Origin: a virus
Strand: one strand, 5' to 3'
IMG/VR virus record: IMGVR_UViG_3300025898_000040
Coordinates: 1-20,389 of that record
Length of the DNA stretch: 20,389 bases
The notes under the pieces were generated by a model. The model worked only from the letters and a program-made list of their open reading frames with translations, was not told where the DNA came from and made no database searches. Of this stretch, positions 13,604 to 20,389 are shown piece by piece. A program made the position numbers and the translations under genes. Position 1 is the stretch's first letter; each line of letters opens with the position of its first letter.

Positions 13604-13659
13604 CGTGCCTGCTCGTCCGACGTGACGGCCTGCGTAGTTGCGGCAAGACGATCGATCAT
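13600..13659 (-). CDS. Possible 19-codon mini-ORF between polymerase and the zinc-ribbon gene
   Basis: The sequence MIDRLAATTQAVTSDEQAR fills the 52-base gap exactly. Its ATG overlaps the polymerase TGA by four bases (ATGA), GGAGGG lies eight bases upstream within the polymerase gene, and its TGA overlaps the next ATG in a second ATGA. It may be a coupling peptide that carries ribosomes from polymerase to the next gene, whose own ribosome-binding site is weak. Too short to prove as a protein. Confidence 0.35.
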   Translation of the reverse strand: MIDRLAATTQAVTSDEQAR

Positions 13660-16600
13660 GCTGAATCCCTCCATGCGAAACTCGGCTCGCTGGCCTCGGC
13701 CTTGATCTCGATCCCAAACAGCTCCCGGGTCATGCACCGGGACAGCTCGGCGGTGGCCTCCGCGGCGTCCTGCTCGGGCACCACGGCCACGATCTCGTCA
13801 TGCACCGGCAGCACCACACCCCCGCCCCAGCGGGTGGCGTCCCAGGCCAGCAGGGCGTCGCCGAGCAGTTCCCGAGCGGTGCCCTGAATGCAGTAGTTGG
13901 GTGCCTTGTGTGGGTATTCGCGGGGCAGGTGGATGACCCGGCCCGAGTAGGTGGGCATCGCGGTGGCGCCCGAGCGCACGTGCCGCTTGACCTCATCGGC
14001 CCAGGCCACGTAGCCGGGGGCGACCAGCTGGAGCGAGTCCACGATTGCGGCCATGGTGGACTCGGGCACGCCGAGCTGGCGGGCCAGGCTGGGCACGCCG
14101 CCGCCGTACGCCCACCCGAACACGCCGCGCTTGGCTGTGTAGCGGTCGGACTTGGTCCACTCCGGGCCGAAGGCCTGCTCAGCCACCATGGCGTGCAGGT
14201 CGGCACCCTCGCGCAGGATCCTGATCAGGTTCGGGTCCTGGCTGAGCGCGGCCATCACCCGAATCTCGACGCCGGAGAAGTCGGCCGAGATCAACAGGTG
14301 GCCGGGGTCGGCGGTGATGCACGCCCGGACACCGCCCTGCCGCGGCAGTTGCTGGAGGTTGGGCCGCACACAGCTCATCCGCCCGGTGTCGGTGCCTAGG
14401 GTGTAGACCGTCGGCCGGGCACGGGCATCGCCGTAATCGCACAGCACCCTGTACGGCTCCAGGAAGGTGCTCAGGACCGTCTCGTGATGCCGGTATGCCA
14501 GGACCGTCTTGACGAGGTCTGCGGCCTCACCAGACAGGCCGCTAAGGGCCTCCAGCACACCGGCCGCCACGCTGGCCTGTCCCTCGGGGTGCCGGGCACT
14601 GGGCTGGGTCCTGGGTAGGTGCACGCCCAGCGCGGTGAGCCGGTCGGCCAGCTGCCGGTCACTGCCGGGGTTGTCGACGCCCAGCGTTCGGAGCGCGGCG
14701 GCCGCGGTCTCCATGGCCGGCTGGTGCTCGTCGTGCAGCGCCTGGACCTGTGCCCGGTCGATGGGCAGGCCGCGGTGGGCAACCCGGGCGGTGATGCGCT
14801 GGACGGCGCGCTCCCGGTCCAGCAGGTCGGCGGGCAGTTGCGGCAGCCGGACCGCCAGGGCAGCGGTGTCCAGCACGTCGCTGGCGGCGTACCGGATCAT
14901 CGTCGAGCAGGTGGAGTCGACCTGGGCCCACCCGGACCGCTCCGGCGGGGTGGTGAGCTTGACGTCGGTCAGCCACCCGTTGACCTTGAACAGCGCCGCG
15001 CGTGCCTTGTCCGCCTCCGGCGCGGTGGCAGTCGCAGAACCCAGGACCGCCTCGGCAAGTTGCTTGAGGCCGGGGTCACTGCCGGTGCTGCTCGGGTCGG
15101 CAAGCTTGGCTGGGATCACGGTGTCGTGCATCCGGTCCCAGGCGGACTCCTCGGCCAGGCCGGCGTGCACCAGCGGCACCAGGTCGGCGGTGGCCGAGTG
15201 GGCGTGGAGGCGTGGCGCGGCGGCCAGCGCCTGGCGGATCACTTCGGCCTGACCCGGGTCGGTCGGGTCCAGCACCACGGCGGTGGTCTCGTCGCCGAGT
15301 TGGACGGTGCGCAGTCGGTAGTCGGCGTGGCCGGGTGCGTACCCGGTGGTCTCCACGTCCACGGTCAGCGCTCCGGTCAGCATGATGTCGGGCATCACGG
15401 TGGCAAGCGCGTACGAGGTCAGCGGGGTGATCTTGCCCGAGCGGTCCACGGCAGCGGGCAGGGGTACCGCCTCGCCTGCGGCAGCCTGCCGGGCGGCGGC
15501 CCGCTCCTGCTCACGCTGAGTAGCCTTGGTGACCCGGTCGACCCGGCGTGACGGCTTGGGGGCCGGTGACGGGTCCGCCAATCCCGTCACAAGAGGGGGT
15601 TCGCCCAGGTCAGCAGGGGTCCCGGTGACCGCCGCTGTGACGGGTTCCCGCGAACCTCCTATTTCCCGGCCAATTTCCCTATTTTCTATATGATCTTTAT
15701 TTATTGATGTTGAGGTTGTAGAACACAAAGAACCCGTCACACCCGTCACAGACCCCCCAGAAATATGGGGCTGACCTGGGGTTGTCTCCCGTGACGGGTC
15801 GGAGGCGGAACCCGTCACCGACCCGTCACCAAACCCGTCACGCGGGGTTGGAGCCGTCACAAGGGCTTGAGCGGCTGCCGGGGCACTCGGAGGGGTGGGC
15901 AGGACCCCGAATCCTCCACCCAGCGTGACCCGCAGTTGCCGGTACCAGCCATCGCGGCGGTGCTCCGGCGGGTATCCGAGGTCGCTCAGCCGCCGGCCCC
16001 ACTTCGTCATGGTGGGCCGGACGCCGTCCTTGATCCCGTTGTTGCGGCACCAGGCCACGAACTGCTCGTGGAGGGTGCCGGCCCGGGTGCCCGGCTCGTA
16101 TGCCTCGCAGGCCTCGGCTACCCACTGCCCGATCGGGTCCTGGTCGGCCGCGACCAGCTCGGCCCGATCCCGGATGTGTTCCGGGGCGGCGGCGGTCAGC
16201 GCGCTGTTCCGGTCGGCGAACCAGCGGCCGGCCTCACGGACCATCTGCCAGAGCACTCCGGGTGCCTCGGTCCGCCAGGCGGCGCCGGTGGTGTCGCCGA
16301 TCGCGGTACGCGCGGCTCGGACCTCGGCCTCGTCGCCCTCGCAGGGGATCAGCCGGACCCGTGCCCGGACGGCCGGGTCGGTCAGCGGCGGTTCGTCGTT
16401 GGCGGTGAGCACCAGGGTGTGGGTCGGGTTGAAGGTGACCGGGTCGCGCCGCATCTCATTGCCGGTCAGCGCCGTGCCGCCGGTCAACTGCTTAAGCCGC
16501 TCCTGGGCCCAGCGACCCTCCCGCGGGCCCTCGTCGATGAACGCCAGCCGCCGGCCCATCAGGGCGTAGACGATGGAGGCGTGGGCGTTGTCGCCGCCGC

Positions 16601-18335
16601 TGAGCAGCCGGGGGTCGGCGCTCAGTGCGTAGGACCCGAGCACCGTCATGAGCAGGTGGACGACCTGCGACTTACCGCGCCGCTGCGGGCCGAGCAGGAT
16701 CGGCAGGGCGGCGTCCGGCTCGCCGGTGAAGGCGATGGCCAGCACGCGCAGCGCCCAGGCGCGCACCTCCGGGTCCGGCCAGACCGCGGCCAGGAAGGCA
16801 TCCCAGCGGGGTGTGGGCACGTCCATCGGCGGGCACACCGCGCTGTGCAGGTGCGGGGTGCCCGGGTCGATCGGCACAGGTACCGGCCGGTCGGCCGAGG
16901 CCCTCAGGTCCCACGCCGTCCCCCCTGCCCACAGCAGGCCCGGGTCGGTGTCCAGGTCGGCCAGCTTGAGCGAGCAGGGGTGCGTGCCGGCGGACACCGC
17001 GGCGGTCATGGTCGCCGCGACGCCGTTGCGCCCCGCGGTCATCATCAGGCGCTTGCGCCGGTCGGCGTACTGCCGCTCCGTGCTGCCCTTCTCGGCGTCC
17101 GGGTTGCCGCGCGGCATCAGTTCGGCCAGTTCGTGTACGGCCCAGCGGGTCAGGTCGCCGCGGGTCTCCCAGCGGTCCGGGCCACGCAGCAGCCAGGTAC
17201 CGCCGTCGACCGCGTACCGCAGGACCGGCCACATCCGGTGCAGGACGGCGGCGCTGATGCCCTGGTCCAGGTCGGCCCGGGGGTCGAAGACGTGCGCGCC
17301 GATGATCTCGCGCACCGACCACGGCACCGCTTCCGGCACGGGCGGCGCCACGCCCGGGTCGCCGCCGGGAGCCGGTACGGACCAGCGGTCGCCGCCGGAG
17401 AAGCACGGATCCCGGTCCACCTGCCGGTCGCCGACCACCGTGACCGCCTTGCGCGCGGAGGTGAGCAACATCCGGTCGAACTCGCCCTCGCGGCCCTCGC
17501 CAGCGGTCAGGATCTCCCAAGCGGCGCGCAGGTCGGCCAGCGCCACCCCGACACCCGGGTGCCCGGCCGCACCCAACTGGGTGAGGTGGTGGGACCGCGC
17601 GGTGGTGACGTCGTGGCGGCTGCCCTGGCTGGCCGCGCGCAGTTCGGCGGTGGCCTTGACAGCGGCGTCGGTCACCTCGGCGCACGACGGTCGCAGGTCG
17701 GCTAGCAGCGTGGACAGCAGCGACTGGCCCCGCCCGTAGTCGGCAGCCACGGGACCGGCCTCAGAGGCGCCCTCGCGCAGCCCGGCCACCCAGGCCTCCG
17801 GAAGGTCGGGGAGTTCGTTCGGCTTCGGTACCGACTCGCTGCGGGCGCCGCTCGGGTCGTACCAGTGATAGGCCGCGCCGCCCGCGTCGGGGTTGAGCGA
17901 TGGCCACGCCACGGCGTACCGGTGGTGCCGCTGAATGATCTCGATGGCCTCGCCCAGTTTGGTGGCGTACCGCCCGGCCAGCACCCGGTAGAAGCGGATG
18001 CCCGAGGGCAGGTCGCGCGCCGACGAGCGCCAGGTGGGCGGCAGCGGCCCCCAGCGCGTCTCGTACTCGGCGATCCAGTCGCCGCCGCGCTTGTCCACGT
18101 CGCCCTTGCGGTAGTGGTCGACGTCGATCCCGATCACGCCGTCCGGCATGCGCAGGGCGATCGACCAGTCCCCGTGGCTGCCGGCCCACAGCGCCAGCTG
18201 GTGCGCGTCGGTGTCCCGGCCGTCCTCGCCGGTGAACCCGACGGGCGGCGGGCTCTTGGTCGCGACCGGTACCGGCAGGATGGCGGGCCACCCGGCCAGG
18301 GCGTAGTCGGCGACGCCGTCAGCGAACGGACGCAC
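13656..18335 (-). CDS. Primase-helicase-DNA polymerase fusion (prim-pol, SF3 helicase, 3'-5' exonuclease, family A polymerase)
   Basis: A 1559-residue replication protein starting at GTG 18335, 17 bases inside the upstream gene. Domains in order: AEP prim-pol (~1-190) with D71/D73 in IGIDVDHY, LPSGIRFYRV at 109-118 and IIQRHHRYAVAWPS at 133-146; D5-like linker region (~340-540); SF3 helicase with Walker A GPQRRGKS (549-556), Walker B LAFIDEG (597-603) and TANDEP (644-649); a winged-helix-like end (~735-805); an unstructured joint (~815-960); DEDD exonuclease with D993/E995 in VDVETTGY, D1051 and Y1149/D1153; family A polymerase with D1352 in motif A, K1402/F1406/Y1410 in the O helix and HDE at 1512-1514. 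All catalytic motifs are present. These are normally two genes. The joint's DNA holds iterons and an AT-rich patch. No intein or frameshift is visible. Confidence 0.93.
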   Translation of the reverse strand: MRPFADGVADYALAGWPAILPVPVATKSPPPVGFTGEDGRDTDAHQLALWAGSHGDWSIALRMPDGVIGIDVDHYRKGDVDKRGGDWIAEYETRWGPLPPTWRSSARDLPSGIRFYRVLAGRYATKLGEAIEIIQRHHRYAVAWPSLNPDAGGAAYHWYDPSGARSESVPKPNELPDLPEAWVAGLREGASEAGPVAADYGRGQSLLSTLLADLRPSCAEVTDAAVKATAELRAASQGSRHDVTTARSHHLTQLGAAGHPGVGVALADLRAAWEILTAGEGREGEFDRMLLTSARKAVTVVGDRQVDRDPCFSGGDRWSVPAPGGDPGVAPPVPEAVPWSVREIIGAHVFDPRADLDQGISAAVLHRMWPVLRYAVDGGTWLLRGPDRWETRGDLTRWAVHELAELMPRGNPDAEKGSTERQYADRRKRLMMTAGRNGVAATMTAAVSAGTHPCSLKLADLDTDPGLLWAGGTAWDLRASADRPVPVPIDPGTPHLHSAVCPPMDVPTPRWDAFLAAVWPDPEVRAWALRVLAIAFTGEPDAALPILLGPQRRGKSQVVHLLMTVLGSYALSADPRLLSGGDNAHASIVYALMGRRLAFIDEGPREGRWAQERLKQLTGGTALTGNEMRRDPVTFNPTHTLVLTANDEPPLTDPAVRARVRLIPCEGDEAEVRAARTAIGDTTGAAWRTEAPGVLWQMVREAGRWFADRNSALTAAAPEHIRDRAELVAADQDPIGQWVAEACEAYEPGTRAGTLHEQFVAWCRNNGIKDGVRPTMTKWGRRLSDLGYPPEHRRDGWYRQLRVTLGGGFGVLPTPPSAPAAAQALVTAPTPRDGFGDGSVTGSASDPSRETTPGQPHISGGSVTGVTGSLCSTTSTSINKDHIENREIGREIGGSREPVTAAVTGTPADLGEPPLVTGLADPSPAPKPSRRVDRVTKATQREQERAAARQAAAGEAVPLPAAVDRSGKITPLTSYALATVMPDIMLTGALTVDVETTGYAPGHADYRLRTVQLGDETTAVVLDPTDPGQAEVIRQALAAAPRLHAHSATADLVPLVHAGLAEESAWDRMHDTVIPAKLADPSSTGSDPGLKQLAEAVLGSATATAPEADKARAALFKVNGWLTDVKLTTPPERSGWAQVDSTCSTMIRYAASDVLDTAALAVRLPQLPADLLDRERAVQRITARVAHRGLPIDRAQVQALHDEHQPAMETAAAALRTLGVDNPGSDRQLADRLTALGVHLPRTQPSARHPEGQASVAAGVLEALSGLSGEAADLVKTVLAYRHHETVLSTFLEPYRVLCDYGDARARPTVYTLGTDTGRMSCVRPNLQQLPRQGGVRACITADPGHLLISADFSGVEIRVMAALSQDPNLIRILREGADLHAMVAEQAFGPEWTKSDRYTAKRGVFGWAYGGGVPSLARQLGVPESTMAAIVDSLQLVAPGYVAWADEVKRHVRSGATAMPTYSGRVIHLPREYPHKAPNYCIQGTARELLGDALLAWDATRWGGGVVLPVHDEIVAVVPEQDAAEATAELSRCMTRELFGIEIKAEASEPSFAWRDSA
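15548..15860. repeat. Iteron array: eleven copies of ACCCGTCAC or its complement
   Basis: Perfect copies as ACCCGTCAC begin at 15732, 15741, 15810, 15821 and 15833; perfect copies as GTGACGGGT begin at 15566, 15637 and 15791. One-mismatch copies lie at 15548-15556, 15582-15590 and 15852-15860. Copies at 15732/15741 are head to tail, and those at 15810, 15821 and 15833 are 11-12 bases apart, about one helical turn. The copies at 15791-15799 and 15810-15818 form a nine-pair inverted repeat with a ten-base loop. The 9-mer is read as VTG, GDG, DPS or PVT depending on frame and direction, so it is a DNA repeat. It flanks the AT-rich patch on both sides. Confidence 0.85.
15661..15730. other. AT-rich DNA-unwinding element; candidate replication origin inside the polymerase fusion gene
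   Basis: Bases 15671-15710 are 31 of 40 A/T, in a window that is otherwise strongly GC-rich. Codons here (several ATA, AAT, AAA, GAA, TCA) differ sharply from the surrounding gene. The encoded joint is Ser/Thr/Asn/Glu-rich (STTSTSINKDHIENREIG). An AT-rich patch beside iterons within a replication gene matches the layout of the phage lambda origin inside gene O. Initiator binding and function are inferred. Confidence 0.6.
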
Positions 18336-18462: not shown

Positions 18463-18920
18463 CGCGCACCCGCCCGGGCGCTGAGCGGGTCGGGCAGGCC
18501 GTAGGTCTTGCAGGCGCAGAACAGCGCGTGCCGGGCGCCGTCGCGGGCGTGCCGCATGCCGGTCGTCGGCTCCAGCAGCCCGGCCGCGGCCAGCCGGGCG
18601 TCGGTAGCCCAGGGCTTCACCTCGGACGCCGATCGCAGGACGAAGTCGATGCCCAAGCTGTCCGCCCATGCCTCCAGGTCGCCGAGCACGGTCCGGGCCG
18701 CGGCGCCGCCCGAGGGGGTGCGTGAACGCCCGGCGCGCGGCCCGACCACGAACCGCTCCGCGGCCAGCGCGGTGAGCTTGAACCAGGCGTGCCACTCGTC
18801 GAGCAGCATCCGCAGGCTGCCGGGCGTGACCTGGGCGATTTCCAGGGTCTCGGTCGGCCGCGTGGGTCGGATGAGGACCGCGCCGACCATGGGCCCGGGG
18901 TCAATACCGGCGATGAACAT
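18459..18920 (-). CDS. RuvC-like Holliday junction resolvase / RNase H-fold nuclease
   Basis: A 153-residue protein starting at ATG 18920, which overlaps the helicase stop by one base (TGATG). The first strand is FIAGIDPGP with D7 as the first metal ligand, as in RuvC (IxGIDPG). A second acidic candidate is E55 in AAERFVVGP, and the C-terminal helix has H124, D127 and H131 in MRHARDGARHALF, matching the last Asp-containing motif of the fold. The length is close to RuvC. It should cut branched DNA before packaging or support recombination-dependent replication together with the neighbouring helicase. The longer upstream reading is shadow of the helicase gene. Several actinophages carry a similar gene beside their replication proteins. 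Confidence 0.82.
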   Translation of the reverse strand: MFIAGIDPGPMVGAVLIRPTRPTETLEIAQVTPGSLRMLLDEWHAWFKLTALAAERFVVGPRAGRSRTPSGGAAARTVLGDLEAWADSLGIDFVLRSASEVKPWATDARLAAAGLLEPTTGMRHARDGARHALFCACKTYGLPDPLSARAGAR

Positions 18921-20389
18921 CAGGCGGCCGCCTTCCTCGTGGAGAGTCCGCCGAGCAGCTGCGTGACGATCCGCCTGTCTTGCAGCAGTTCCGCCAGCTG
19001 GCCGGCCTTGTCGTAGAGCACCCCGCGGATGCGGGAATCGATCGTGTTGGTCGCGACGATGTCGATGACCTCGATCGAGTCGTGGATCTCCGACCCGATG
19101 CGGTGGCAGCGGTCCTCGGCCTGGGTGGCGTCGACCAGCGACCAGGGGCGTTGGAGGAAGACGACGGTGCGCGCGGCGGTCAGGGTCAGGCCGACGCCGC
19201 CGGCTGCGGTGGTGGCGCACAGCAGGCCGAGCTTGCCCTTCTGGAAGGCCTCGACCGTCTCGGTGCGTTCCTTCATGGACTGCCCGCCGACGACGTACCC
19301 GACCTGATAGCCGGCGGCCGTTGCCTGTTGCCCGGCCAGCATCATGAGCTGGCGCGACGGCGCGAACGCCACCACCTGCTCGTCCGGCCGCTCGGCCAGC
19401 ACCTCCAGCAGGGCGTCCACCTTCCACGAGGGCGCTTTGAGATCGAGGTGGGTGTGTTCGACTTCCTCGCCCTCGCGCGGGCCGCTGGTCGCCACCTCGA
19501 CAGTGATCCGCACGTCTGCCGCGGCAGAGGCAAGGCCGTTGAGAAAGTTGATTTTGGCCAGTACATCCATCACGGCCAGCTCCTGGCCATCAGGCAGCTC
19601 GGCCAGCATCTGGGACTCGAAGTTGTCGTAGGCCTTGCGGTACGCCTCGGGCAGCTCGACGTTGCGCACGCTGTAGACCTTCGGCGGCAACTGGGTCAGC
19701 ACATCGGCCTTGGCCACGCGGCGGTGCTGGCCGTGCAGGGTGGCCCGGAACTCCGGCTCGCTTGCCGTGTTGAGGCCGAGCACGCGGGCGCTGTAGTCGC
19801 CGGGGACGGTGACGCAGTACCGCTCCTTCCACCGCTCCCCCGACGGCCACGCCAGCGGCGCCAGGGCCTCCAGGGTGGGCCAGAGGTCGCCCGGGTGGTG
19901 AGTGATCGGGGTCCCGGACAGCGCGACGAACGTGTCGGCCTTGCGGGCCAGCCGGCGCGCGGCCAGCGACCGGGCGGCGTGCGGCGACTTGATCAGGTGG
20001 CACTCGTCGACCACGACCGACCGGGCGCCAACCTTGTCCAGGGGGTGGTGCTTGGCGGCGTCCATCCTGGTGGTGTCGTAGCTGGCGACGATGACGTGCG
20101 CTGCGGCGCCGGCCGGCCGCGCGGCCAGGCGCCGGCGGTGGTCCGGGGTGCCCCGCCACGCGGTCACGCGCCAGTCCGGGGCCCAGGTTTTCCAGGCCTC
20201 CACCCACGGGTCCACGACGGAGGCCGGTGCGATGACGAGGACGGGCGCGACCTGGTGGCCGGCCGCGGCCCGCTCCAGCAGGCCCAGGATCGTGGTGATG
20301 GTCTTGCCGGTGCCCGGGTCGTCGAACAGCAGCGCCCGGCCGGTGGCGGCGATCATCGTGGCGCCTTCGACCTGGTACGGCCGGGGGGT
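18920..20389 (-). CDS. SNF2-like superfamily 2 DNA helicase/translocase (5' end beyond the right edge)
   Basis: At least 489 residues; the frame is open to the window edge and the residues before the ATG at 20356 include RPYQVEGA, the usual start of the SNF2 ATPase core, so the true start lies outside. Counting from that ATG: Walker A DPGTGKT at 13-19, DEAH-box variant DECH at 117-120, motif III SGTP at 147-150, then the second lobe with VVAFAPSRQ (328-336), AAGGVGLTLTAA (384-395) and arginine-finger motif VI QAEDRCHRIG (412-421). All core motifs are intact. It likely moves along or remodels duplex DNA during replication or recombination. It is the first gene of the visible cluster, and the resolvase follows with a one-base overlap. 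Confidence 0.9.
   Translation of the reverse strand, partial: TPRPYQVEGATMIAATGRALLFDDPGTGKTITTILGLLERAAAGHQVAPVLVIAPASVVDPWVEAWKTWAPDWRVTAWRGTPDHRRRLAARPAGAAAHVIVASYDTTRMDAAKHHPLDKVGARSVVVDECHLIKSPHAARSLAARRLARKADTFVALSGTPITHHPGDLWPTLEALAPLAWPSGERWKERYCVTVPGDYSARVLGLNTASEPEFRATLHGQHRRVAKADVLTQLPPKVYSVRNVELPEAYRKAYDNFESQMLAELPDGQELAVMDVLAKINFLNGLASAAADVRITVEVATSGPREGEEVEHTHLDLKAPSWKVDALLEVLAERPDEQVVAFAPSRQLMMLAGQQATAAGYQVGYVVGGQSMKERTETVEAFQKGKLGLLCATTAAGGVGLTLTAARTVVFLQRPWSLVDATQAEDRCHRIGSEIHDSIEVIDIVATNTIDSRIRGVLYDKAGQLAELLQDRRIVTQLLGGLSTRKAAA

Follow-up and report, generated by a model that had tools for sequence, protein, structure and literature searches.

A probable replication origin of the P4-alpha/SaPI-Rep kind inside the coding sequence of a one-polypeptide phage replicase

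In phage P4, a satellite, the alpha protein unites a primase, a helicase and a C-terminal winged-helix origin-binding domain, and it is paired with short iterons. Reportedly, no DNA polymerase is attached to alpha, and the P4 origin is said to lie outside the coding sequence. In the Lactobacillus phages A2 and phiadh, a helicase gene precedes the primase gene, the annotated rep_origin begins at the 3′ end of the latter, and there are iterons on either side of an AT-rich stretch. The SaPI/PICI Rep-ori systems and the SCCmec helicase Cch2 are built around a self-loading D5-type initiator helicase, the C-terminal domain of which binds iterons directly downstream of the gene, in two sets around an AT-rich region (PMC6092414, PMC7581432). 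The PICI origins have the same layout and experimental support, as their segments support replication (PMC6092414); in Cch2, the C-terminal domain is what binds the downstream iterons (PMC7581432).

Other systems share only some of these features. Lambda O and the replisome organiser genes of Tuc2009/TP901-1 have origin repeats within the initiator gene (PMC8965321), but these initiators are of an unrelated type that loads a host or phage helicase, and they themselves contain neither a D5 helicase nor a primase or polymerase. In lactococcal phage 1706, GP55 carries a helicase, an AEP primase, an exonuclease and a DNA polymerase in one polypeptide, although the polymerase is of family B, the order of the domains is different, and the portion of the source available does not report an origin in the gene (PMC12205980). 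The ORF904 protein of pRN1 joins a Prim-pol, an SF3 helicase and a winged helix, and a required element is found directly downstream of its own gene; however, this element is a stem-loop and not a set of iterons, and no polymerase is fused (PMC4234260).

The locus described here comes from an actinobacterial tailed phage. The window, meaning the whole stretch of DNA that was analysed, is a 20,389-base (20.4-kb) record with a GC content of about 70% and with terminase, portal and protease-like genes on the minus strand. A single minus-strand ORF (13656..18335) encodes a protein of 1559 amino acids that holds the helicase, primase and polymerase domains together, making it a one-polypeptide replicase, provided that it stays uncleaved. 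From the N-terminus, it comprises a Prim-Pol domain (residues 10-176, 17808..18308; Pfam PF09250, E 1.2e-16), a D5_N domain (residues 372-520, 16776..17222; PF08706), a helicase ATPase core (residues 547-651, 16383..16697; PF19263, DUF5906), a C-terminal winged helix of the helicase part (residues ~730-805, 15921..16148), a joint, a 3′-5′ exonuclease domain (residues 989-1161, 14853..15371; PF01612) and a family A DNA polymerase domain (residues 1201-1538, 13722..14735; PF00476, E 3.1e-51), all on the minus strand. As in the A2 and phiadh modules, a helicase gene precedes the primase, here a SNF2/DEAD-like helicase on the minus strand (18920..20356) upstream of the replicase gene. An identical 1559-aa protein is present in IMG/VR contig 3300005437_000026. 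The joint between helicase and exonuclease is a low-complexity segment of about 180 residues with no stop codons in the frame of the ORF, compared to 10 and 6 in the other two frames. A separate polymerase made from an internal start was considered and rejected; the only candidate is an in-frame GTG with a weak upstream motif at residue 992, which is already part of the exonuclease domain.

The structure of the helicase part was modelled with AlphaFold for residues 340-815 using 38 sequences, and the model (mean pLDDT 90.6) matches D5-type hexameric helicases across the D5_N region. In Foldseek, the whole modelled region matched AsfvPrimPol (E ~1e-18) and the poxvirus D5 hexamers (E ~1e-14), the ATPase core matched AsfvPrimPol, vaccinia D5 and MPXV E5, and the profile of the protein matches AsfvPrimPol and D5 as well, which makes this a D5/SF3-type hexameric helicase. 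In the model, residues 791-803 (15927..15965, minus strand) form the wing hairpin of the C-terminal winged helix. Modelled alone (pLDDT 82.9), the winged helix has as its top structural match the phage P4 origin-binding domain 1KA8 (Z 9.5, 2.0 A, 77 residues), followed by RFX domains, so that the predicted fold is that of a C-terminal winged-helix origin-binding domain. Since the Foldseek E value against 1KA8 is weak (0.016), the match rests on agreement of fold and on context, and the matches beyond P4, RFX and AsfvPrimPol are generic winged-helix ones. RFX1 is known to place its wing in the major groove (PMC6137059), in line with a role of the wing residues in determining specificity in the present protein.

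The joint is also where the repeats are found. Between 15548 and 15860 there are eight exact copies and three one-mismatch copies of the 9-mer ACCCGTCAC, on both strands, all eleven with the core CCGTCAC. The exact copies on the plus strand are at 15732..15740, 15741..15749, 15810..15818, 15821..15829 and 15833..15841, and the inverted ones (minus strand) are at 15566..15574, 15637..15645 and 15791..15799. The copies with one mismatch are AGCCGTCAC at 15852..15860 (plus) and, inverted, at 15548..15556 (minus), together with TCCCGTCAC at 15582..15590 (plus). No exact ACCCGTCAC occurs in the rest of the 20,389-base record. One-mismatch copies in the whole window number 15 against 10 expected, which is not significant alone, whereas their clustering is; the repeat score of the joint is 19.0, compared to at most 10.0 in any control stretch of equal length from the same locus. 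The copies are translated as VTG, RDG, PSR or PVT; they occur in both orientations and use two of the reading frames, which indicates a feature of the DNA. The spacer between the two iteron sets (15646..15731), a probable unwinding element, contains the AT-richest 40-mer of the whole record, which begins at 15672, is bordered by the copies at 15637 and 15732, and has 32 of 40 A/T. The earlier note had described eleven copies in both orientations around an A/T patch in a GC-rich genome, and this description holds once a single mismatch is allowed. GC skew has no extremum at the joint and is uninformative as evidence for an origin.

Iterons thus lie directly 3′ of the part encoding the helicase and winged helix, in two sets around a region that should melt easily, as in the SaPI/PICI and Cch2 systems. 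Unlike in those systems, where the origin is outside the gene, here they are inside one ORF with PolA following in frame. The iteron sequence also differs from that of P4. The earlier note compared the arrangement with lambda-type origins, and the placement inside the initiator gene stands. The initiator itself is not a Lambda O/P-like initiator with a loader but a D5-type primase-helicase-polymerase, and its closest counterparts are the P4-alpha, SaPI-Rep and Lactobacillus A2-type systems, with the array directly 3′ of a D5-type primase-helicase gene.

A scan of viral contigs and genomes yielded 42 distinct loci in which a single open frame encodes both a primase-helicase and a polymerase. 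One of them is in a Micromonospora zingiberis prophage (L048), and the helicase halves of the 42 loci share from about 33% to 81% identity with the two query proteins. When each joint was scored for repeats against all stretches of equal length in its own locus, the joint outscored every control in 34 of the 42. Two-strand 9-mer clusters, searched over up to ~17 kb, exist in 36 loci; in 35 of these, the strongest one is in the joint, the exception being L032, in which it lies elsewhere. No such cluster was found in L029, L036, L037, L151, L158 and L160. A clear array was not found in L037/L144, L160 and L040, and it is weak or degenerate in L029, L036, L151 and L158; the degenerate copies of L036 sit at positions that fit the scaffold described below. 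The same fusion with no repeats in the joint would have counted against an origin, but the clearest array lies in the joint in 35 of 42 loci, and the remainder are degenerate, weak or mostly more diverged. Frame maintenance could not be judged from indel lengths in close pairs, since the alignments were too noisy and the gap lengths not consistently multiples of three, so stop counts and the open ORFs of the 42 loci were used instead.

The 9-mer varies among genomes but is nearly uniform inside each, with ACCCGTCAC, ACCCTTCAC, ACCCTCCAC, ACCCGCCTG, ACTGTCCTG, ACCCTGCAC and others represented. Its arrangement on the coding strand follows a conserved scaffold, -(21)-(11)-(19)+(48-50)-(8-9)-[spacer]+, of which the 11-bp step is common to 33 of 39 loci (the maximum is 12 with positions randomised). 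In 33 of 35 cases, the spacer that separates the minus group from the plus group stands out within its own locus: it either contains an AT-rich 20-mer, which is the case in the window, or is a long tract, of up to 43 nt, in which purines and pyrimidines alternate. Alternating tracts can adopt the Z-form under supercoiling. The spacer is probably the melting element.

Some of these loci are unusual in other ways. The primase end looks swapped in L031, L032, L033, L036, L038 and L025, in which the N-terminal primase part is unlike that of the window; in L025, L033 and L038, this goes with a polymerase half that is 76-82% identical to the window's. The fused replicase of L144 (5845-11559) has a LAGLIDADG-like insertion (residues 785-842) in its helicase part and no clear iterons. 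In L145 (3694-8148), the same type of PolA is joined to another kind of N-terminal part, one that contains DUF3854, and iterons are absent. At L176 (9584), the polymerase match starts a single base ahead of the stop codon that ends the helicase ORF; this could reflect a frameshift, an error in the sequence or a polymerase gene that is separate and overlaps.

The variation of the 9-mer made it possible to compare the iteron consensus of each genome with the columns of the protein. Columns of the joint were left out because the joint encodes the iterons and would covary with them trivially, leaving 809 columns. The best-covarying of these are residue 797 with base 5, residue 792 with base 6 and residue 794 with base 9, each of which ranks ahead of the next unrelated column for its base, and all three are in the wing hairpin. 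When base 5 is G, residue 797 is K, R or W in 23 of 24 genomes, and when it is T, another residue, mostly N, is found in 14 of 15. Similarly, H792 accompanies a T at base 6 in 19 of 22 genomes and never occurs with C or G. Bases 3 and 8 have too little variation for covariation to be interpreted. A striking pair is L022 and L024, with a helicase distance of 0.04, in which ACCCGTCAC with H792/K797 in the one stands against ACCCTCCAC with R792/N797 in the other. Changes in iteron bases track the helicase tree no better than shuffled labels, so congruence of trees is no guide to whether the iterons and the helicase half travel together, and the covariation was tested in independent pairs instead. 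In tree-independent pairs, the residue at 797, 792 or 794 (for bases 5, 6 and 9) differs in 9/10, 10/11 and 8/8, respectively. A handful of other columns differ in equally many pairs without sorting by base in the way of the wing residues; it is this sorting, and not the pair test by itself, that is specific. Non-fused phages with a readable register offer a weaker check, since their registers were assigned by eye, and they agree for base 5: with G at base 5, residue 797 is W in L088 and R in L236, and with T it is N in L230, L234 and L240 and I in L232, L233, L238 and L241. This covariation, along with the fold match to the P4 origin-binding domain, supports the binding of the iterons by the winged helix at ~730-805, a role that the earlier note had offered as one option for residues ~735-805 of the same protein.

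The array is not confined to fused genes. In a scan for repeats alone, blind to protein, with the matches checked afterwards, the arrays of mixed orientation lay chiefly in the joints of fused genes or immediately behind primase-helicase genes that are not fused. Mixed-orientation ACCCGTCAC clusters also occur in L068, L097, L100, L125 and L079/L083, with no adjoining primase-helicase match. The primases of A2 and phiadh are ~51-57% identical to that of L088, and their modules resemble the present one in the homologous primase-helicase, the rep_origin at its 3′ end and the iterons flanking an AT-rich stretch; they differ in having no fused DNA polymerase, other iteron sequences and an array outside the primase ORF. 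A palindrome like TTAGCAGTCGACATACTAGAGTGCTAA, which resembles the CIRCE (HrcA) element, is located beside the Lactobacillus-type phage origin in L230 (4117-4150) and downstream of the array in L088. In phages of the phiC31 type, in which primase and PolI are encoded separately, no such array was found between the two genes, which counts against the origin reading. Streptomyces phage Shawty (L013, 6494-6702) has three copies of CGTGAGTAG, in both orientations, in a non-coding stretch after the PolI gene, and these could be an origin site in phiC31-type phages.

Since non-fused relatives, A2/phiadh, PICIs and Cch2 share the layout, the array most likely predates the fusion, although the tree is unrooted. 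It would once have stood directly 3′ of a primase-helicase gene and have become coding when a polymerase was joined in frame across it. Fused relatives with polymerase halves ~80% identical have different helicases and different repeats, and for this reason the exchangeable unit looks like the helicase with its repeats, the polymerase being separable. The expectation that gene and origin always move together appears to hold in part, for the helicase and its repeats, but does not extend to the polymerase half.

What else might such an array be? An operator, through which the winged helix or another regulator would control transcription or autoregulate the replicase while replication starts elsewhere, has in its favor that plasmid iteron initiators often autoregulate and that the covariation indicates probable binding and not replication. 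It seems quite unlikely for an array ~2.5 kb inside the transcription unit and not at the promoter, with an AT-rich or alternating spacer fixed between iteron sets in a way that suits melting, and at a position that is annotated as rep_origin in non-fused relatives; moreover, PICI segments of equal layout support replication (PMC6092414). There is only a very slim chance that the array is some other DNA site, such as a partition centromere or a packaging or recombination site. The protein that covaries with it is the P4-like domain of a replicative helicase rather than a Par, terminase or integrase protein, and the packaging genes are kilobases off in the window, even though iteron-like arrays serve as centromeres and transfer origins too, and the winged-helix protein TcpK reads 9-bp oriT repeats by its wing (PMC6137059).

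Protein selection also needs to be considered, since the joint is translated as a linker, and the repeats could be the by-product of a Gly/Ser/Thr/Pro-rich linker of VTG-like units; eight of the 11 copies are in one reading frame, and five of these read VT. Against this, two orientations and two frames yield different peptides, orientation and spacing are kept at the level of bases in relatives in which the amino-acid sequence of the joint is hardly conserved, and the arrays of non-fused relatives are non-coding or outside the primase gene. Hardly any credence can be given to such a by-product.

A replication origin in the joint, as the earlier note had proposed, is strongly supported by comparison with the fused relatives and with the annotated origins of the non-fused ones. 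Very probably, then, the joint is an origin of the P4-alpha/SaPI-Rep kind inside the coding sequence of a one-polypeptide replisome, a reading supported at the level of sequence by the array, its scaffold, the covariation, the fusion, the folds and the layout common to annotated origins. No experiment on this phage or its fused relatives was found in the literature searched, and an in vivo start at the joint, DNA binding, melting, ring assembly and bidirectional initiation are what the comparison would predict. The P4-like winged helix (~730-805) would bind the 9-bp iterons, with the wing reading bases 5, 6 and 9. Two D5-type helicase rings would assemble on the two sets of iterons, which are mostly in inverted orientation to each other across the spacer, and the spacer, AT-rich or, in many relatives, an alternating purine-pyrimidine tract, would melt. 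The rings would then unwind outwards, the N-terminal prim-pol would prime, and the attached family A polymerase would extend.

We lean, though not strongly, towards a broader view in which the whole replicon is held in one gene. It would be an autonomous replisome with a coding linker as its own origin and a fast-evolving wing-iteron code in which many iterons change along with two or three residues of the wing (e.g., L022/L024), and alternating tracts would replace the AT-rich melting element in GC-rich phages. If true, one stretch of DNA would be both a protein linker and an origin in the all-in-one replicase of dozens of distinct phages and prophages. It would also provide a testable recognition code for P4-type origin-binding domains, stating which wing residue reads which base, with many natural specificity variants and with AT-rich and alternating purine-pyrimidine melting elements that can be compared in nature. 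Consisting of a single protein and a few hundred base pairs of DNA, this system would be a compact candidate for reconstituting replication.
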